From Cylindrotheca closterium (taxonomy: Eukaryota > Bacillariophyta > Bacillariophyceae > Bacillariales > Bacillariaceae), in assembly GCA_933822405.4 (NCBI GenBank), contig CAKOGP040002014.1, positions 1-64,000 of the forward strand: a stretch of DNA of 64,000 bases, given 5' to 3'. The notes under the pieces are model-generated. The model did no database searches. It was given only the letters and a program-made list of their open reading frames with translations, and was not told where the DNA came from. Both the position numbers and the translations under genes were made by a program. Positions 2,822-59,410 of this stretch are shown piece by piece (within the stretch, counting starts at the first letter, position 1; every line of letters starts with the position of its first letter).

Positions 2822-3319
2822 GCTGTTACTGATTGATTGACTGTTGTAGTTGGTGGAGTGAGAGTATCACGGGTGATGTTTGTGATTACACAACTGAAAT
2901 GTGCGCTGTGTAGGTGAGTTGTTCCGAGAATAATAAACGTTGCTGACGATGAGATGGGATGATGTTCGTTTTTTGCTTCCATCGTTTGATGATGACGTGG
3001 TTTCGATGACCAAACAGTAGGCAGGAGGACACGGTCAAAAAATCAAATGTCGGACATTCGGACATCTTGTCGTACAAGCTTCTGCGAGCCAGCAAGTCCC
3101 AATTTGAAAATATTGTTTATATATTTGACGGTACTTTCTCGGTATGTTTATTTACTTGGATAGAGGTAGGGCCGTTGAAGAAACTTCCAGCGATTGGGCC
3201 GGATCGTGCCAAATCGCGCGCAAATCTATAAATTCGCATCCTACACTTTTTTCTGATGGTCCATTCACTTTAGACCTAACAATACATCATAAGTAACAAC
3301 AGTGCAACCAACCACCATC
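2822..3319. promoter_or_regulatory. Shared 5' region of two divergent genes
   Basis: This separates the Duc1-like (minus) and PhoX-like (plus) starts, so it must contain both promoters. A TATA-like TATAAAT lies at 3227-3233, about 90 bp before the plus-strand ATG at 3320. No other motif stands out. Confidence 0.4.
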
Positions 3320-6300
3320 ATGCCGGAACCTGCTCTCCCGTCAGTTACATATGCAGACTACAAGAGAGCCATACGAGGAAGCAAACGAAAGAATGACACC
3401 TCGCAAAGCAGTAGTGCTTCCATGAAAGAAGAAGCAGTAGCTTATCCTGTTGTCAAATCAAGTAGTAGTTCACAAAATAGCAAAAAGAAAGGACGAACAT
3501 CGATCCATTCGGGCGTGAAAGCAAGCAAAGATTCTTCCTCATTGCTTCAGAACGATGTTGCCACCTCCTCTGCTCAGATAGAGAAAGATGTCAGTCAACA
3601 GAATACTAGTGAGACCAATACGCACAACAACAACAACACTGATCAGCAAGATGAAGGCTTTGAAGTGTTGGAGCAGCAGCATTCAGGTGAGCTGGAAACA
3701 TCGAGCTTGACGATACAACATACCATCTCAGGTGAAAGTGAGAGTCCCTTGGAACAGAAACAGAACAACACAAACAACAACAGAAACAACAGTTGTGACG
3801 AAGGATTTGAAGTCCATGATTCCACTCTCATCATATCGTCACAGCGACAGCAAGGAGAACCACAACATTCCACGGATAATGCCAAGACGGAAGATCCTAT
3901 TCAAATTACAGAGTCCATTTCTTTCAAGTCTGCCGATGATAGCATATTCAGCACAGAAGGACAACAACAGAAGGAATCCCCACCACGGAAAGTTGTTCAC
4001 ACTGCGGCATTAGCATCAGACTCACGACTAAGGTTGTTCACGACGTCCGCCATTGACATGACGGGTTGCATTCGAAAATCTGATTCACCAGAATCTTCTT
4101 CCAACGGTGGTGGCAGTGATAGCACCCGTTCCAACAATATTCGACAGCTGGGATTTCCACACTCTCCCAACAAAAAGAGTAGTAGTCACAGCAGCAGCAG
4201 CAGTCCAGAAAAAGAAGAAGTTTCGTCCGAACCAGGTAAAAGTCTGGATCAAAGATGGCAGGACTTTGGCGCTTCCTTGACCCTATTGGGAGCGCCAGTG
4301 CTCAGCTGGTTTTCGGCAACGACATCGGACGGTGTGGTGGCAAATGATGATGAACAACAAGTAACAACACAGCCTACTACTAGTCACGATGATAAGGACA
4401 AACGAACTAGGCAAGATTCAAATTCGTCAGAGTACGCAGATATGGTCTTGGACACTGCACCAGTGGTGGACGACACGTGTTCTTCGTCCTCGACGGTATC
4501 CAAGAAAAAGATTACTACGTCGTCTCTATCATCTACCGACCAAGGATCCCTTTCCTCGCATGATGGTGTCGTTGGAGAAACTACTCCTCGAGCGCAGATT
4601 GCCTTGCCTCGACAACTGTCCCGCTTATTTAGTGCCAAAGGTGGAGCAGGTGGTGGCGAAAGCGATAACGACAAACAGGATGGCTTCTCCATTGCGGATT
4701 GGTCGCAGAAGACTTGGAACAAAGTGGTCACATCTATTCCTTCCAAGGACGAAAATCCAAAAAGATGGTATCAACTTCTTCTTGGACTCTATCTGATCTC
4801 AGCATCCATTTTCATCACGATAATGGTACTGGTAATGAAATCGGGTGGTGGTACTGCTGCTTTCATGCTTTCCCAAAATAGCAGTGACATTGTGCGATCT
4901 TCCGCTCCTACAGTTACAGCTTCCGTGGTTCCGAGTGACAGCCCATCACTGGTGCCATCCAATATTCCCACCAACTCACCTACCATCACTGGAAGACCAA
5001 CTAGCTCTCGAGCTCCATCCACAGTACCGAGCGAAGCACCATCACACAAGCCTTCCATTGAACCCTCTGGCAATCCTACCATGACTGCCATGCCAACCTC
5101 GGAACCCATGACCTATGTTCCAGGCAAGCTAACCGTTGAATCGAATGGACTCAAATTGAGCGAAGGATTAACCAGTCGCATCATTGCACGATCGGGACAA
5201 AAAGTCTTGCTCGATGGCCGTGGATTTCTTCCAACCAATCAAGAAGATGACTGGAATCATACTACTAGCAGTAGTACTACTACCAATTCCTCCTCAATCG
5301 CTCCATCGTCTTCGCCAACGGCCTGGTCCATTGAATCTGACGAGGTCTTTCATTTCAAACCAGATGGAGCAGCTGCCTATCTGTGGCCCGAAAATGACGA
5401 CTACAATGGAAAAGGTTGGGTATATGTCAGCAATTCGGAAGTTTGGGACCAAGGAGATGGAGGTGTGGGAGCCATTTACTTTGATGATCAGGGAAGAGTC
5501 GTGGATTACAAGATGCTCATCAATGGAACGACTGCAAATTGTTCTGGCGGAAAGACTCCTTGGCATACTTGGGTTACCTGTGAAGAAGCCGATGATGGAA
5601 GAATCTATCAAGTGGATCCATTGGGAATCCGGCCACCAGAAGAAATGACAATTGGAATGGGACAAGGCAAGTGGGAATCCTTTGCCTACGACATTCGTGA
5701 CCAAACCAAGCCACGATACTTTGCCACCGAGGATAAGGATTCCGGAACCTTGAGACGATTCACACCTGATGAGCCGGACTGGGACGATCCATGGACCATG
5801 CTTCAAGCCAATGGCACTGTTGACTTTTTGATATTTGAACCCTTCGACTTGGATGGACGAACAAGTGGTACTTTCTTTTGGACTACCGATCTACGAGCCG
5901 CCAAGGAAAATGCGCGAAGATTCTTCCGAAACTCAGAAGGGATTGATGTCCGAGACAACCAGCTCTTTGTTGTATCCAAAGTCCAGAAAGAACTGTTCAT
6001 TCTGGACTTGGATGCCATGACCTATGAAGTCCATTCCACTGTCGTTGGATTGTTTGATGGTCAGCCAGATCAGATGAAACGACTGATCTCTGACGACGGC
6101 AAGGCTGGAACCAAGCACGACAAGAGTTTGTTGTACTTTTGCGAAGAAGGCGGAAGGAATAATGGAATCCATGCACGAGATAGTTCAGGATGGTACTTCA
6201 CTGTACTCGAGTCTGATACATTGGATGGCGAGACGTCTGGACTTGCCTTTTCTCCAGATGGCAAGCACATGTACTTTTCCTATCAGCACAGAGGCATAAT

Positions 6301-6391
6301 ATTTGATGTATGGCGAGAAGATGGTCGACCATTTCATGGCAAGACGCTCAGCGTCAAGTACCACGAAACCGGTGAAGCCACCATCCGATAA
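3320..6391 (+). CDS. PhoX-like (DUF839) single-span membrane protein, copy 1 (1023 aa)
   Basis: Three parts are visible. Residues 1-480 are a low-complexity Ser/Gln/Asn-rich cytoplasmic region. About 484-510 is one membrane span (LLLGLYLISASIFITIMVLV). About 527-597 is a P-S/P-T stalk of the type common in diatom surface proteins. The C-terminal 420 residues match the PhoX/DUF839 alkaline phosphatase fold, including NCSGGKTPWHTWVTCEE (from Asn740) and a late ETSGLAFSPDG-type motif. Bacterial PhoX enzymes are Ca/Fe-dependent phosphatases; whether this one keeps the metal site cannot be read by eye. The topology puts the domain outside the cell or in a vesicle lumen. The start is the ATG in ACCATCATGCC; a GTG 18 bp upstream is rejected. 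No intron is needed, unlike the paralogue at 60161. Confidence 0.75.
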   Translation: MPEPALPSVTYADYKRAIRGSKRKNDTSQSSSASMKEEAVAYPVVKSSSSSQNSKKKGRTSIHSGVKASKDSSSLLQNDVATSSAQIEKDVSQQNTSETNTHNNNNTDQQDEGFEVLEQQHSGELETSSLTIQHTISGESESPLEQKQNNTNNNRNNSCDEGFEVHDSTLIISSQRQQGEPQHSTDNAKTEDPIQITESISFKSADDSIFSTEGQQQKESPPRKVVHTAALASDSRLRLFTTSAIDMTGCIRKSDSPESSSNGGGSDSTRSNNIRQLGFPHSPNKKSSSHSSSSSPEKEEVSSEPGKSLDQRWQDFGASLTLLGAPVLSWFSATTSDGVVANDDEQQVTTQPTTSHDDKDKRTRQDSNSSEYADMVLDTAPVVDDTCSSSSTVSKKKITTSSLSSTDQGSLSSHDGVVGETTPRAQIALPRQLSRLFSAKGGAGGGESDNDKQDGFSIADWSQKTWNKVVTSIPSKDENPKRWYQLLLGLYLISASIFITIMVLVMKSGGGTAAFMLSQNSSDIVRSSAPTVTASVVPSDSPSLVPSNIPTNSPTITGRPTSSRAPSTVPSEAPSHKPSIEPSGNPTMTAMPTSEPMTYVPGKLTVESNGLKLSEGLTSRIIARSGQKVLLDGRGFLPTNQEDDWNHTTSSSTTTNSSSIAPSSSPTAWSIESDEVFHFKPDGAAAYLWPENDDYNGKGWVYVSNSEVWDQGDGGVGAIYFDDQGRVVDYKMLINGTTANCSGGKTPWHTWVTCEEADDGRIYQVDPLGIRPPEEMTIGMGQGKWESFAYDIRDQTKPRYFATEDKDSGTLRRFTPDEPDWDDPWTMLQANGTVDFLIFEPFDLDGRTSGTFFWTTDLRAAKENARRFFRNSEGIDVRDNQLFVVSKVQKELFILDLDAMTYEVHSTVVGLFDGQPDQMKRLISDDGKAGTKHDKSLLYFCEEGGRNNGIHARDSSGWYFTVLESDTLDGETSGLAFSPDGKHMYFSYQHRGIIFDVWREDGRPFHGKTLSVKYHETGEATIR

Positions 6392-29828: not shown

Positions 29829-29884
29829 GTCAGTTGTTGAAACGAAGATGAAAGAATACTTCAATCTTCTTATCGCAACGTCAT
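29829..29884 (-). promoter_or_regulatory. Candidate SECIS element in peroxiredoxin 3' UTR
   Basis: About 96 nt after the stop. On the minus strand ATGA (29884-29881) is followed after nine bases by AA (29871-29870), a six-pair mini-stem GAAGAT/ATCTTC (29869-29864 with 29849-29844), a 14-base loop, and then a strand holding CAAC and ending in TGAC. GTTG/CAAC can pair next to the quartet. The order ATGA, AA bulge, upper stem, TGA is that of a form-2 SECIS, but the lower helix is weak. Confidence 0.35.
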
Positions 29885-29979: not shown

Positions 29980-30733
29980 TTACTTTGAGGCTTCTATGGC
30001 CTTCAACATGCCTTCCGCCAAAGTATCTTCAGGGTTATCATCACCAGCTGGATCGTCTTCCGATTCCGACACATTAATGGCTTTGATTTCTCCATTGACG
30101 GCATACAAGGCAAAGCGCTTGCATCTACCGACAATACCCTTAGAAATAGGCCCAGGATGAGTGAGCTCCATGTCGAGAGCCTTGGTGAGTTCTCCGGCGG
30201 GATCGGCCATTAGTTGCAACATGGACTGAATGGATTCAGAAACAATTTAGGCGAGGAACATCACGTCATGAGATGAGATGATACAGCTTGTGATAATTCA
30301 ATATGCATTCTCCACACAAATGAATTCGACCTCAGAGTTCACTGCATACTTCAATTTATTTAAAAACGCAAATACAACTTACCAATCCAACCTTTTGGTC
30401 TTTTCCCCAGGCCTGCATCACTGCCCCATCATTTACACAATAGACAATAACAGTTTTGATTCCGGCCTTACGGAGTGCGTCTTGGTTTTCCAAATAATTT
30501 GGAATTTGCTTTGTGGATCAGGTAGGAGTAAAGGCCCCTGGAAGACCGACAAGCAAGATTGATTTGTCCTTGGCAAAGTCGGCCAAGTTGTACTTCTTAG
30601 GAGGAAATCCTTGATGCAACTCCACAGATGGAAGAGAGTCTCCAACAGAAGCAAATGATCGAAGGAAGGACGATGTGGATGGACGAACTGCCCTTGCAGC
30701 AAGGCCGCTGCTCAAACGAGAAGCAAATAGCAT
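29980..30733 (-). CDS. Peroxiredoxin (PRX5/type II-like) with in-frame TGA, probable selenoprotein (198 aa, two exons)
   Basis: Exons are 30383-30733 and 29980-30225, joined in phase 0 over a 157-nt GT-AG intron. An Arg/Ser-rich presequence (about 1-29) suggests mitochondria. The active-site segment reads LPGAFTPT-TGA-STKQIP; in PRX5/PrxII proteins this is PGAFTPTCS, so the TGA (30518-30520, codon 72) replaces the peroxidatic Cys. Downstream, QDALRKAGIKTVIVYCVNDG, VMQAWGKDQ, MADPAGELTKALDMEL and KRFALYAVNGEIKAINV all fit the family. Selenocysteine is the simplest reading: no splice site removes the TGA without removing the active site. Cys99 and Cys152 are possible resolving residues. Peroxiredoxins reduce H2O2 and alkyl hydroperoxides; Sec would change rate and resistance to over-oxidation. 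The alternative is a one-codon pseudogene. Confidence 0.8.
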
Positions 30734-34139: not shown

Positions 34140-36008
34140 TCAAAATTTGTTGGATAGCTGAATGCGATCTAGTGGCCAGATCCTCGCTACCGGTTTGCCA
34201 ACAATGTTTTCCTTGGGCAATACACCGAACACACGAGAATCGACCGATACGGCCTTGCAATCACCTACCACATAGGCTTCATCCTCTCCAAGCTCAGCAA
34301 CATTTCTCCCCTTTCCGTTTTTTAGCATCTTATCAATTAGTCTTAGTGGTTCATCTTCGCACAAATCTCGATTGGGTCCCATTGATGGCTTGCCATCAAT
34401 CGTCACCTCCCTCGTCTCATCGTCCAATCGAATATTCTTGTCACCTGGAACTCCCACCAAGCGTTTCACAAAGAGGGATGTTCTAGAAATGGGTCGACTT
34501 TGAGGACTTGATGAGGCAATCAAGTCCGTCAGAGAAGGTGGCGGTCGAAAAAGCACTACATCTCCTCGCTGGGTGCGATCGTACACCCCTGGTAGCTTTT
34601 CCACAAGCAAGACGTCGCCCCGCAGCAATGTAGGTTCCATGCTTGCACTGGGAATGGCATACAAGGACACGAAGGTTCTCAAAAACAGTGCTACTGGAAT
34701 GGGCATGATAGCAACCGCCAAGGCCAACGCATAGGCCTCCCATTCACGCTGAAAGGCTGCCGTGATTCGAGGAATGGCCGAATCCCTATTGAAACGAGTA
34801 GACGTCACATTGGCAAGGAGTTCCGCGTCGACTTCCATCGGCCAGTCTTGAGTCATTCCATTTCGTTGCCAAAGTTGTCGCTGAAGCTTCCATCCACACG
34901 GCCTTAGAGCTAGCTTCGCTCGGTTCTTTTCCTCTTGGCTTGACAGAGAAGATGTGGAGAAGAGTTGGTTTCCATTCCCGTCCGTCATGGTCATGATGCG
35001 GTAGTCAATGCCAGGATACACAAAACTTTCTTTCAGTTTCTCGGCTTGAATGCTTCCTTCCTCCATGGGACGGGGTACGATCACTTCGCCAGCCCGAAAT
35101 TCGCGGGAGGACAATGGTTGGTTGGATGACCGAAGGACATCACCCAAGGCACCCTTGGGAGGAAAGGAAAAGGAAATCCCACTTTGTCGCTTGTCAAAGA
35201 CTGTAATATTTCCTCTGGCACATATTCGACCTAGGCCTTGGCACACTTCACCAGCACTCCATATGCTCGATCCCCAATCGGTCGCTCGGCCGACGGATTC
35301 CACTGCTTCCAATTCGTGACAAAAGGTCATGGCGGCCGACCAGGTAGTGTTGGATTTGGGCAGTCCACCCGAAGTAGAGATTGATAGTATTTCCATATCA
35401 TCATCGCCATCTGCAGCACCGGTATTCTCTTTGGATACGCACAATTGCAAATTCCAGGAAACATCCAGTTCTTCACCATATTCTTTTGGTAGATACCGAA
35501 GATAGGCTGATGCAATACCACCAACGCTGCCAGACCCACTGACATATCGTCCTCTTGGATACAATAGTATTTGAAATAATTCTGTTCCAATATCAAATTC
35601 CTCACTCAGTATACAGTAAGGGATTTCTTCCGACTCTCCTTCAGAAGTAATTCGGTTACCGACTGTGGTTCGATCATTACCTACTAAGCTAGTCACCGGT
35701 CGAGGATCGTTCCACAATTCAATGAATTTATCCCCAAAGGATTCTGGCTTTGGTCTTTTGTTGATCAAAGGAACGGAAAATGAATAGGTGGGGGCATGCT
35801 TATGATCATCATTGCTGAGGAATGCGTCAGGAGAATTCAGAACTGGATTTGTGTTCTTGCTCGTGGTGCTGAGGATGGAAAAGGCATCTACAGTGATGCT
35901 AAAATGAAGCAAGCTGATTATGAAGAGAATATCCCAAGTGTTATGGAACGACTGAAATGGCATTATCAGAAACCTGCACCGAAGCATGGTTGCATATCTG
36001 CGTTTCAT
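34140..36008 (-). CDS. Type I signal peptidase, plastid-type, with extra N-terminal domain (622 aa)
   Basis: The C-terminal 200 residues are signal peptidase I: membrane anchor (LALAVAIMPIPVALFLRTFV), IPSASMEPTL with nucleophile Ser456, RGDVVLFRPP, FVKRLVGVPGD with base Lys515, and GDCKAVSVDSRVFGVLP near the end. The N-terminus has a signal peptide ending VDAFSILS (Ala42-Phe43), the AF junction of diatom plastid proteins, so a thylakoid or plastid processing peptidase is likely. Residues about 75-330 form an extra region with ELFQILLYPRGRY, AYLRYLPKEYGEELDVSWNL and a late WGSSIW, which looks MATH-like; this is a weak call. The frame is open upstream to 36251, but the start before the signal peptide is chosen. 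The acceptor-free single exon reads cleanly. Confidence 0.8.
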   Translation of the reverse strand: MKRRYATMLRCRFLIMPFQSFHNTWDILFIISLLHFSITVDAFSILSTTSKNTNPVLNSPDAFLSNDDHKHAPTYSFSVPLINKRPKPESFGDKFIELWNDPRPVTSLVGNDRTTVGNRITSEGESEEIPYCILSEEFDIGTELFQILLYPRGRYVSGSGSVGGIASAYLRYLPKEYGEELDVSWNLQLCVSKENTGAADGDDDMEILSISTSGGLPKSNTTWSAAMTFCHELEAVESVGRATDWGSSIWSAGEVCQGLGRICARGNITVFDKRQSGISFSFPPKGALGDVLRSSNQPLSSREFRAGEVIVPRPMEEGSIQAEKLKESFVYPGIDYRIMTMTDGNGNQLFSTSSLSSQEEKNRAKLALRPCGWKLQRQLWQRNGMTQDWPMEVDAELLANVTSTRFNRDSAIPRITAAFQREWEAYALALAVAIMPIPVALFLRTFVSLYAIPSASMEPTLLRGDVLLVEKLPGVYDRTQRGDVVLFRPPPSLTDLIASSSPQSRPISRTSLFVKRLVGVPGDKNIRLDDETREVTIDGKPSMGPNRDLCEDEPLRLIDKMLKNGKGRNVAELGEDEAYVVGDCKAVSVDSRVFGVLPKENIVGKPVARIWPLDRIQLSNKF

Positions 36009-36043
36009 GTTGAGAATCCCGATGATTCTTTGTAAAATGATAC

Positions 36044-36051
36044 TGACGTCA
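36044..36051. promoter_or_regulatory. Palindromic CRE (TGACGTCA)
   Basis: A perfect 8-bp CRE 36 bp before the chosen signal-peptidase start, within the 163-bp space between two genes. bZIP proteins bind this site; use here is inference. Confidence 0.35.
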
Positions 36052-36171
36052 GAAGTAGCAAGATCGGGCGACTGTGCTAAAGAATACGATTGGCAGTATA
36101 TTATACCGTAAACAGTTTGTTGGTTGTTGGAATGGAATACGGAAAGATTAAATATGGAAAAGTTATCGCGG

Positions 36172-39100
36172 TTATGATGTTGCTGCTTCTTCTTCAGGGG
36201 CAAGATCGCTGGAAAAGTTGATGACTCTGCCGGTTCCCCGAGGTTGGTCATCTCGCAAATTAATCTTCAAACTCTTTTCAGAGGCCCTCAAAAAGCCAGT
36301 GATAAACTTCTCAGGTACGCTTCCATTCACCTTCTCCCCGCGGCCTTCTTCAAAGGTGAAAAAGTTGAGATCCACATGGGTTCGACCATCCCATACCAAA
36401 ACAACATTGGCAACCTGGCTCGAGTATACAATGAGACCACCATCGCCAACCTTCTGAGTCTTTTCAAACTTTCCAGCAGAGGCGTCAAATCCAGCAGTCT
36501 GAATGGCCGTCTTCAACATCTTGAATAGACCGTCAAACTTCAACTCAACATCAGGTCGATTTGCTTCCAACTGGAAAACATTTTGACGTCCAAGCGGGTG
36601 TTGTTCGGCATATTGCTTCAACCCTGGGGCATTGTCGTAGTCTTTTTGCTCAAAATTGACCGGTTCGAAATCGAAGTCATATGGGAAAAGACCAGCATTG
36701 ATCGTGGTAAGCTCCACCTTCACATCGGTCAGACGTTCCTTGATATTGTGCTCGACAGCTTCCAGACTATACACATACAAGGTGTTGCCACAGTAGACAA
36801 GTCCAATCTCCACAACATCTTCTCCAGCATGAGTCAACTCAAAGACGGCTCTTGCAACAGGGTCATCTCCATGCTGAATGCGATAACGATCCAAAAAGAA
36901 CTTGCGGAACTTTTCTTCCTTTGGTTCGGCCGTAAAGGCCAAGACGACATTGACGGTATTGAGAACGGATTCACGAACTTCGTCGGCATCCAAAATACTA
37001 TTGAAGATTTGCAGCATTTCATAGGGCGCCGAGCTGTCGACCATAAGCATGTCGAACGGCTTGTTGGATTCATTCACAAAATCTTGCCATTGCTCGGCCA
37101 AGGCCTTTTCGCATTGGAACATTTTCTCTTCGCTTTCCAAGGAATCACAGGTTTGGAACTTGAACACCGTCGTGACAAGCGGATTGGAGTCGGCAATATC
37201 AAACGACATGCAGTCCGAACCTTCCAATCCACAAACAACACCAACCGTGACGGTATCATAAGCAGAATCCAAAAGTGTAAAAGTTTGGTTCAGTGCAATT
37301 TCAATGGCACGCTTGGGAATTGGAGCAACATCGGGAGAAGTTTCTCGTTCCTTGCAGTTGCGATTCATATTCGTCACCGTCTTGGAGTATGGTCCAATCT
37401 TCACTTGATCCTCCTTCCAAGTACTGGATCCAAACATACCTCCAACGACAATTTTGTAGGCAGAGACCAAAGAACTCTCTACAGCCTTTGTCAAGGCCTT
37501 CTTCAATGATTTGATTTCAAAAGTCTTGCCCCATAGATTGATATCGAATCCAATATAGTTGTGTTCCGGCCACAAACGTGCGGCAATGTATCCTTCCTTG
37601 AGTACGGCAACCACCAGGTTCCCACTGTAGGCTTTGCTAGGACCCACAGTGAATCCTTGTTCAGTAGCGACATCCTGGAGTAGCTTGACAATCTTGGCCT
37701 TGTCATCGAATGCAATAGAAACCTCTTCGGCATTGACAATTTCCAAAATACCGGCACTGGTGTCTTGCTTGGACGTATCAATGGGTGGAGTAATGGTATC
37801 GCACTTCCCAATCGCCCGGGCATCGTTCTTGCGGTAATCGTGCATCAAATCGAAACGATTGTCATCCTTTGTGAGTGGGGTGTACAGTAGATTGGGGATT
37901 TCGTGATCCTTGGCGTCATCGTGCAAAAAGTCGACCTTGTTACTGCCCAAAGCAACGACTTGGGAGCAAATGATTGGAGAATCGTATAGAATTTGGACCG
38001 TGTAGTCAAAGACATCCGAAAAGTGTTCCAAGTACAGTTCGTTCTTGACAATGACACCATCCTTGTTCAATAGCAACGCCAAAGCATCAAAGACATCCAA
38101 TTCCTTCGTGACGGAAAGGGACATGACGGTTTCGGACAGATCCACCAAGACCAAATCAAAGGATCCCCAATATTCTTCTGGCAGTAGCAACATACTCTTG
38201 GTAGCATCTCCAAACCACCACTCGACACGTTCGTCATCAAAATGAGGCTGGGTTTGAAAATACTTGAAGGACTTTCGTGTAATGGTTTGATCCAATTCCA
38301 ATCCCACCACCTTTTCCAAAGTGGGGTACTTCAAGGCTTCAAACAGAAGCATGGAATCACCACCACCCACAAAGAGGACCCGCTTGACCGTATCAATGAA
38401 TCGTGCCGCATAATGTGTGACAAATTCGTGGTACTGTGGACGGTAGCAGGAACAGATTTGGACAATGTTATCAATATCCATGCACACATCGTCCATTTCT
38501 TCATTATACTCAAATCCAACCGGCTGATAGTTGGTCTGAAGGGATTCCAAGTGCGTGTAATCGTGGAACATCATGACTTCTCCATTGTCGCAAGTAGGGC
38601 TGATATAATCCAAATCATCCGGCTCGTACTTGAGTAGATCGTAGTGATGGTCTCCTTCTTCATACGTCAGTGCTGCCGTGACATTGGTGGCACACGCGGC
38701 ATCTCCGGGACTGGAACATTGGAGTGCACCACCCTGGCTTTCCAATTTGACCTGTTCGTATTGCTTGTCCAAAAACTCGCGGGCAAGTTCCAATGCCAGT
38801 GTATTCCCCTTGTGAAAGTCCCAAATGATTTGCCATTCTCGTTCTGGAATTTTGGGCCATTTGGTCCGATGAAAGTTGAGATTTTGAATCCGTCGTTGAC
38901 GTCGCAATTGTCGTCGGACCCAAACGCGAGCATAGCGAAGGTATTCGTCCTTGGGGATAAAGCGAGTGGGCCAGTCTACAATCTTGACCTCGCCCGTTTC
39001 TTCGTCCTCGTCGATATCAAACTGAATGGTACCACCCAAGTTATTGTAGTACCAACGTTGTGGGTATTCCTCGACAAATCCGTAATCGCGAAGAATTTCT

Positions 39101-57619: not shown

Positions 57620-59410
57620 ATGACAACGACACGACTACGTCATCATCATCATCATCATTTCTGGTCGTTGTTCGTCACCAGTCTCATTTGCCTGCTAATA
57701 TCGAATGTTGATGCTCGTCGAAATCAACGACAACAACAGCCCAGGATTGTGGGCGGTACCAATGCCAAGCCCGATGAATTTCCCTACTTTGTGCAAATGG
57801 GCAAATGCGGTGGCGTCCTGATTGCACCCGGCATTGTGCTATCCGCCGCCCATTGCATGGAAATTTTTCGGATTGGCGTCTACGTGACGCTGAATCCCCA
57901 CGGCGTCAAGGATCTGTCCTCGAAACGCTTGAAGATTGTGGACCGATATTTTCATCCCTGGTATTGGGACGAATGGGCGAGTTATGATTTTATATTGTTG
58001 CGATTGGAGGAACCCCTTTATTACAATGATGATTCCTTATTCTTATCGACTGAAACCACCACCACCACAACCACCACCACCACAATCACGAAAAATTCCA
58101 ATACCAACACTGACATTGATTTCTCGGTCAATCTGGACGATGCCTTTCCACCTGACAATGTTACATTAACGACCATTGGGTTTGGTACCCTGAAATCGGG
58201 CAGCAATCGATTTCCGGACATTTTGCAAAAGGTGGACTTGACCAGCATGAATTTGGACGATTGCAATGCGACCTTGGAAGGTGAATTGTTGGACGATTCG
58301 TTTTTGTGTGCGGGGACCTATGAGGGTGGAAGAGATTCTTGTCAAGGCGACTCGGGTGGTCCATTGCTTTATGTACGAGGCAATGTCCATATTTTGGTAG
58401 CCTTGGTATCTTGGGGAGAAGGATGTGGTGATGCTGGCATTCCAGGAGCCTATGCTCGTGTCAGCAAAGCCATGCCTTGGATTGAAAAGGTAGTCTGCGA
58501 TTGCTGGAATGTCCAAGGAGCACCCTTTTGTTCGCAATCAATTGTAGCCGCCGACCAGCGACAATCATTGAACAATAACAGCAACAACAGCAACAGCAAC
58601 AACAGCAACAGCAACAGCAGCAACAACAAGAAGAATGAGACGACGACGCTACCACCAAAAGAAGGAGGAGGAGGAGAAGCAGAAGAATTTGAGTGTCCAC
58701 TCTACATTGATCCCAATTGTCAAGACACTCCTGGCTATGTCGATTATGTGGGAGACGTTTGCGCCTGGCACGAAGTCGAAGAGAATCCAGGATGCATCTG
58801 GTATGGAGAATCTCCCGGTGGACCTGGATTTGAAGATTCCAATGCCCAAGGCGAATGTTGTTGGTGTGGTGGAGGCAGTATTATTGTTGACAAACCAAAA
58901 TCACCTCCAATCAAATTTGAACGACATCCGGAATGCATTGACCTAAAAGATTGGAACGATCTATATGGCGACGATTGTGCTTGGTTCGAAGCCAATACGG
59001 ACGAGGGGACTTGCAGTGGGTGGGGAACCATTCGAGGAGGCGCTGGAATGCGGGACATTACACCTGACGAGGCATGTTGTCATTGTGGAGGAGGTATCTT
59101 TCCCACGCCCGCTCCTACCTCACCCGCGCCAACGATCTATGTCGCACCAACGGAATCCATAGCACCAACGCAGACGCCAGTACCATCCTTGGAAGTTGTC
59201 TATGTCGAAAATCCAACACAACAGCCGACGACTGCGACGTCACCACCAGCAAAAGACTCTCAAGCACCAGAACTGAAGGATGATGGATTGAGTGACTCGT
59301 CATCAGCGACTAGTAGTAGTATGAGGAGGAGGAGGATGATGATGGTAGTATCGTCCACCATGAGCATGATGATGATGATACCAATGGTGATAATAGCTAT
59401 AATAATATAG
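57620..59410 (+). CDS. Trypsin-like serine protease with two C-terminal Cys modules (596 aa)
   Basis: A signal peptide with a natural His run (HHHHHHFWSLFVTSLICLLI) precedes PRIVGG (activation after Arg42). Triad: His78 (LSAAHC), Asp123 (SYDFILLRL) and Ser244 (CQGDSGGPL). Asp238 in the S1 pocket predicts cleavage after Lys/Arg. A Thr-rich insert lies at 144-157. After the protease come a Ser/Asn linker and two related Cys modules (about 355-415 and 435-490), each with G-D-x-C-A-W-(H/F)-E and CC-x-CGGG. Last are a P-T stalk and a hydrophobic Met/Ile-rich end, which suggests a membrane or GPI anchor. Likely a surface or secreted protease; the modules may bind wall material (inference). Confidence 0.85.
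   Translation: MTTTRLRHHHHHHFWSLFVTSLICLLISNVDARRNQRQQQPRIVGGTNAKPDEFPYFVQMGKCGGVLIAPGIVLSAAHCMEIFRIGVYVTLNPHGVKDLSSKRLKIVDRYFHPWYWDEWASYDFILLRLEEPLYYNDDSLFLSTETTTTTTTTTTITKNSNTNTDIDFSVNLDDAFPPDNVTLTTIGFGTLKSGSNRFPDILQKVDLTSMNLDDCNATLEGELLDDSFLCAGTYEGGRDSCQGDSGGPLLYVRGNVHILVALVSWGEGCGDAGIPGAYARVSKAMPWIEKVVCDCWNVQGAPFCSQSIVAADQRQSLNNNSNNSNSNNSNSNSSNNKKNETTTLPPKEGGGGEAEEFECPLYIDPNCQDTPGYVDYVGDVCAWHEVEENPGCIWYGESPGGPGFEDSNAQGECCWCGGGSIIVDKPKSPPIKFERHPECIDLKDWNDLYGDDCAWFEANTDEGTCSGWGTIRGGAGMRDITPDEACCHCGGGIFPTPAPTSPAPTIYVAPTESIAPTQTPVPSLEVVYVENPTQQPTTATSPPAKDSQAPELKDDGLSDSSSATSSSMRRRRMMMVVSSTMSMMMMIPMVIIAIII

Follow-up and report, generated by a model that had tools for sequence, protein, structure and literature searches.

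The window, a stretch of 64,000 nucleotides from contig C468 of the Cylindrotheca closterium genome (47.6 Mb in 572 contigs), carries on its minus strand a two-exon gene for a PRX5/PrxII-type peroxiredoxin (PRX), which starts with an ATG at 30733, ends with a TAA at 29980 and lies among the long open reading frames (ORFs) listed in Table 1. Frame 0 of exon 1 is interrupted by a TGA in the context LPGAFTPT-TGA-STKQIPNYL. When a few bases on either side of the junction were tried, the intron proved to be the sole frame-keeping GT-AG pair, and its removal joins AWGKDQKVGL to SMLQLMADP. The spliced translation comprises 198 amino acids with the TGA as sole interruption, no other lesion and intact splice sites, so that both the coordinates and the reading given in the preliminary description (a PRX5-like remainder across a clean intron, with the TGA as the single lesion of the gene) are correct. 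By eye, the N-terminus encoded by exon 1 resembles a mitochondrial presequence.

Table 1. Features of the PRX5 locus and neighbouring long ORFs (positions are those of the window).
Feature	Position	Strand	Remarks
PRX5 gene, exon 1	30383..30733	minus	residues 1–117
In-frame TGA	30518..30520	minus	codon 72, peroxidatic position, proposed selenocysteine
Cys99 codon	30437..30439	minus	YCVND; coordinate from codon number and sequence
Intron	30226..30382	minus	GT-AG, 157 nt
PRX5 gene, exon 2	29980..30225	minus	residues 118–198 and TAA stop
Weak SECIS candidate	29829..29884	minus	AATGAC core 97 nt from the first base of the stop
Long ORF	3302–6391	plus	PhoX domain
Long ORF	34140–36251	minus	signal peptidase S26 domain
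Long ORF	36172–39039	minus	spermine synthase and AdoMet decarboxylase domains
Long ORF	57620–59410	plus	trypsin domain

With a Cys put in place of the TGA, the window protein matched the Pfam family Redoxin (PF08534) with 79.7 bits against a curated cut-off of 26.6 (E = 2.4e-22), and its best solved relative by sequence was human PRDX5 (E about 5e-26); no family was matched in NCBIfam. The two proteins share the PGAFTP motif and the catalytic position and show a gap-free alignment between the catalytic residue and VND. The catalytic Cys of human PRDX5 falls on codon 72, where the window gene has a TGA for which we propose selenocysteine (Sec), in line with the earlier statement that PRX5/PrxII enzymes have a Cys at exactly that place. 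The PGAFTPT core in front of the catalytic residue is invariant in an alignment of 39 rows. The remaining cysteines differ. The resolving Cys of human PRDX5 is presumably the C-terminal one; because Cys99 and Cys152 are the only cysteines of the window protein, such a C-terminal resolving Cys, by which animal atypical 2-Cys PRX5 enzymes are recognised, is absent from it. Human PRDX5 also has a Cys 25 residues past the catalytic one, where the window protein has a Val, and Cys99, two residues beyond, aligns with a human Ser. The solved relatives further include HI0572 of Haemophilus (1nm3), which we take to be a hybrid of Prx5 and glutaredoxin (Grx); unlike such hybrids, the window gene lacks a Grx domain in Pfam. 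Among the homologues, P0005 fuses Grx to PRX5 and has W (probably TGA) in the peroxidatic position.

When the genome was searched with the window protein, six places matched, five of which belong to three TGA-bearing genes (the two exons of the window gene, L001 and the two exons of L004) and the sixth to L048. The TGA stands at the same catalytic codon on three contigs, C468 (window), C224 (L001) and C58 (L004). L001 reads LPGAFTPT-TGA-SSRQVPGY and, with a late intron removed, ends in GKDEL, which is an ER-retention signal. In L004, LPGAFTPT-TGA-SSRQ is followed by an intron starting four codons past the TGA and then by VPGYLES, and the protein begins with MMFFSGLAIGLMATSASAFSA, containing an ASAF-type motif of the kind that we take to direct proteins to the diatom plastid. 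Judged by eye from their termini, the three enzymes would be placed in the mitochondrion (window gene), the ER (L001) and the plastid (L004). The same search found no PRX5 paralogue with Cys; a functional Cys paralogue, combined with a missing SECIS, had been named beforehand as speaking against a selenoprotein. L048 (contig C212) is divergent, with 34% identity, and its site holds neither Cys nor TGA; four other peroxiredoxins found with the Redoxin search (L002, L003, L005 and L007) have kept their Cys. In several PRX5-like homologues (P0125–P0127, P0129, P0130 and P0141), the catalytic position is occupied by Ser, Glu or Ala; together with L048, these proteins are perhaps catalytically dead relatives.

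Among the 120 homologues listed of 1,417, the residue at the catalytic site is W in 94, Cys in 20 and Arg in one, and the site is missing, skipped or garbled in the remaining five. The W probably stands for a TGA that was read as Trp by the gene caller, a reading that agrees with the three PRX5 genes read as DNA. The comparison of homologues for Cys or UGA at this codon, which had been suggested as a check, thus gives W (probably TGA) in those 94 and TGA in the two paralogues. Similarity extends across both sides of the codon: identity to the closest homologue, P0001, is 0.94 over the 71 residues before and 0.92 over the 126 residues after the TGA, and for the six homologues compared it ranges from 0.55 to 0.94 before and from 0.65 to 0.92 after. 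Of 575 bacterial PRX5 relatives that matched, 80 were kept, and all of these have Cys; P0112 of Cylindrotheca fusiformis combines a true Cys with a KDEL end. A pattern was matched by 16 stretches of viral contigs, none of which encoded a relative. In a quick tree comprising 161 rows and counting W as Sec, at least 13 changes between Sec and Cys are needed; 43 of 201 proteins had been dropped before tree building because their site was unreadable or their residue was neither W nor C.

The expectation that gene callers would damage such genes is confirmed by eight named diatom gene models from which the codon is absent: P0008 of N. inconspicua, in which six residues are left out; P0167 of C. closterium itself, which is the ER paralogue L001 minus 23 residues; two Bacillariaceae sp. 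MAG proteins (P0085 and P0168); P0185 of Seminavis robusta; P0162 and P0179 of Nitzschia sp. Nitz4; and P0188 of Chaetoceros neogracile. In addition, the transcriptome proteins P0048, P0052, P0128 and P0131 have odd residues right at the site.

The genome also encodes components of the Sec machinery. A search for tRNA-Sec gave 11 matches, five of them above the cut-off, and ARAGORN assigns SeC(tca) to four copies in tandem on contig C168 and to one copy on C124; the best match below the cut-off is read as tRNA-Ser. The four tandem genes lie within about 550 bases (C168:176390–176933), and five tRNA-Sec genes are, to our knowledge, unusually many. The gene for the Sec synthase SepSecS is present as well, with one TGA in its second segment, where the TGA-bearing stretch may be an intron. 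Internal TGAs recur in other selenoprotein-type genes: five of seven GPx matches have one, read at the catalytic position, the MsrA gene L041 has one at its active site, and the SelT-like L026 and the SelM/Sep15-like L042 have one each. None of the four AhpC-TSA_2 matches in the genome has an in-frame TGA. The 11 selenoprotein-type genes examined terminate with TAA (nine) or TAG (two) and never with TGA, compared with 57 TGA among 144 long-ORF ends (Fisher's test, 0.007), the latter being ends of ORFs and not of verified genes.

For the SECIS element, which had been proposed as a check, the outcome is divided: a weak candidate hairpin was found 3′ of the window gene (Table 1), and a match to the Rfam model was not. 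The candidate has the layout A(TGAC), stem-loop, (TGAC), with AA following the first eight bases of the stem-loop, and no other (A/C/G)ATGA than its AATGAC core at +97 occurs in the first 420 nt counted from the stop. The helix of the candidate is short or broken, its stem energy of −11.5 kcal/mol is equalled by 10% of shuffled sequences (P = 0.10), and folding of 211 nt around it gives a z of 0.03. Relaxed scans keep the 5′ core (29883) constant and pair it with two alternative 3′ partners, ending at 29829 or 29799, so that the structure may take either form. The Rfam model SECIS_1 had no match in the window, in the gene or in the genome, where the best 133 of 915 candidates were scored. This silence probably means little: the TGA-bearing GPx genes do have good SECIS-like hairpins here, so the model appears insensitive in this genome.

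A strict home-made scan returned nothing in the 3′ flank of the window gene but hairpins near L018, L019, L026, L004, L017 and L020, and one in an intron of L001. Weak hairpins were also found in the 1.5 kb beside controls of the Cys type or free of internal stops (L002, one; L003, one with −12.3 kcal/mol; L005, L021 and L024, two each; L007, none), and a hairpin alone therefore proves little. When 10 core sites were subjected to the shuffle test, four formed no stem by the rule applied (GPx17, GPx20, GPx22 and SelT26) and the P values of the other six ranged from 0.003 (GPx19) and 0.040 (GPx18) up to 0.140, including the 0.100 of the window gene. AATGAC occurs at most 156 nt from the stop in eight of the 11 selenoprotein-type genes, the window gene among them, versus 13 of the 144 long-ORF ends (Fisher's test, 3.8e-6), with the proviso that the motif was picked after the data had been seen and that the ORF ends may share loci with the 11 genes. 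Counted from the first stop-codon base, the cores of the three PRX5 genes start at 85–103 nt, that of L004 being CATGAC. It is plausible that a real SECIS lies 3′ of the PRX5 genes, the hairpins described being candidates for it. The best SECIS-like hairpin of L001 (positions 1978–2027 of L001, on contig C224) lies in its last intron and not in the 3′ UTR; it has a 13-bp stem, AA in place, a TGAT/TGAC core and −16.1 kcal/mol, and a background of 128 kb contained no candidate combining a stem of at least 12 bp with −16 kcal/mol or less. As many loci were scanned, this hairpin may be due to chance; if it is real, Sec insertion would hinge on intron retention.

An in-frame TGA can arise in ways that do not involve Sec. 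Were the gene a pseudogene or truncated allele, with the TGA a simple nonsense mutation and everything behind it untranslated, the lack of a proven SECIS would be expected; yet the same TGA stands at the same codon of three separate genes, which makes this reading very unlikely, and the closest homologue is about as similar after the TGA as before it, further lesions are missing, the splice sites are intact, and the residue in 94 of the 120 listed homologues is W, not Cys. An error of sequencing or assembly for TGC or TGT is barely credible, since the codon is identical on C468, C224 and C58 and those W residues come from other data sources.

That W would favour a changed nuclear code, in which TGA stands for Trp or some further residue instead of Sec. 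Trp at the peroxidatic site would permit no peroxidase chemistry, however, and the enzyme would be inactive; moreover, TGA ends 57 of the 144 long (unverified) ORFs, genes for tRNA-Sec(tca) and SepSecS are present, and in-frame TGAs are found at active-site positions of GPx- and MsrA-type genes, so that we give a changed code very little credence. Finally, the TGA segment could be a short unrecognised intron, its removal yielding a protein without active-site residue, as P0167 and the seven other named diatom models would have it. Against this, the excised piece varies from model to model (six residues in P0008, 23 in P0167), the pieces take with them all or part of the otherwise invariant PGAFTPT core, and the segment is in frame in the 94 listed homologues with W, most of them from metagenome-type sources. 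Such an intron is accordingly highly improbable.

We are therefore left with great confidence in a PRX5/PrxII-type peroxiredoxin that has Sec as its catalytic residue 72 and is probably located in the mitochondrion. The selenoprotein proposed in the preliminary description is upheld by the three TGA-bearing paralogues, the W in most listed homologues, the Sec machinery and the other TGA-bearing genes. In the proposed mechanism, the UGA would be read by tRNA-Sec through its TCA anticodon, with a SECIS hairpin of the 3′ UTR as guide. In peroxiredoxins, the catalytic residue attacks the peroxide and the resulting acid intermediate is then resolved by a thiol. Sec72 would accordingly convert H2O2 or an organic peroxide into water or an alcohol via a selenenic acid, for which the resolving thiol might be Cys99 or an external one (glutathione/glutaredoxin or thioredoxin); the Grx-PRX5 fusion P0005 hints at glutaredoxin as the reductant.

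Cys99 lies 27 residues past the TGA, where Cys-type homologues mostly have Ser or Ala. It is present in 83 of 97 W/TGA-type versus four of 20 Cys-type proteins in a first set, and in 113 of 124 versus 10 of 30 in a larger one, the 124 including three rows from C. closterium itself and seven W-type rows without readable site being excluded. After correction for kinship on the quick tree of 161 rows, the association is not significant (median p 0.25); seven independent pairs on well-supported branches give a mean of 2.7 concordant, 0.1 opposite and 4.2 without difference. The link between Sec and Cys99 is for this reason a lead only. Cys152, in the motif RCKR, shows no link with the site type (83 of 97 W/TGA-type versus 17 of 20 Cys-type proteins) and is lacking in L004. 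The resolving Cys of plant enzymes is presumably located two residues before the Cys99 position and that of animal enzymes at the C-terminus; Cys99 matches neither place and tends to be absent from Cys-type forms. That the diatom Sec-PRX5 constitutes a distinct catalytic type, with Sec72 resolved by Cys99 and all PRX5 of the cell, in mitochondrion, plastid and ER, committed to selenium, is possible but in our view rather doubtful.

COG1225 is, as we understand it, the BCP/PrxQ group and not PRX5. The bacterial Sec peroxiredoxin is reported to belong to COG1225 and to have a TXXU motif (PMC1088965), and its Sec sits at the TxxU site, as does the proposed Sec of the window protein. Counterparts are also known from algae. 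One published survey assigns two selenoprotein peroxiredoxins to Thalassiosira pseudonana, one to a first species of Ostreococcus and three to a second (Lobanov et al, 2007; PMC2375036). Another puts the selenoprotein genes of diatoms at 20 to 44 and ranks PRX with the Sec proteins that are most widespread in algae (Jiang et al, 2020; PMC7539508). These are likewise peroxiredoxin selenoproteins of eukaryotic algae including diatoms and, by their description, likely belong to the same PRX5 subfamily. Among the literature records available, those on C. closterium and selenoproteins amounted to a review on algal systems biology. The selenoprotein had been called new, which holds for the gene itself; its kind is not new, because Sec peroxiredoxins were reported from T. 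pseudonana in 2007 (PMC2375036) and from algae again in 2020 (PMC7539508).

If the selenoprotein reading is true, the PRX5 of this diatom would depend on selenium in apparently three compartments. The active site is lost in at least eight public diatom gene models and is written as Trp in databases of predicted proteins, and surveys of diatom antioxidant capacity or of marine selenium demand may thus miss these enzymes. The Cys enzyme P0112 of C. fusiformis and the KDEL-type TGA gene of C. closterium form a natural pair in which the benefit of Sec could be studied.
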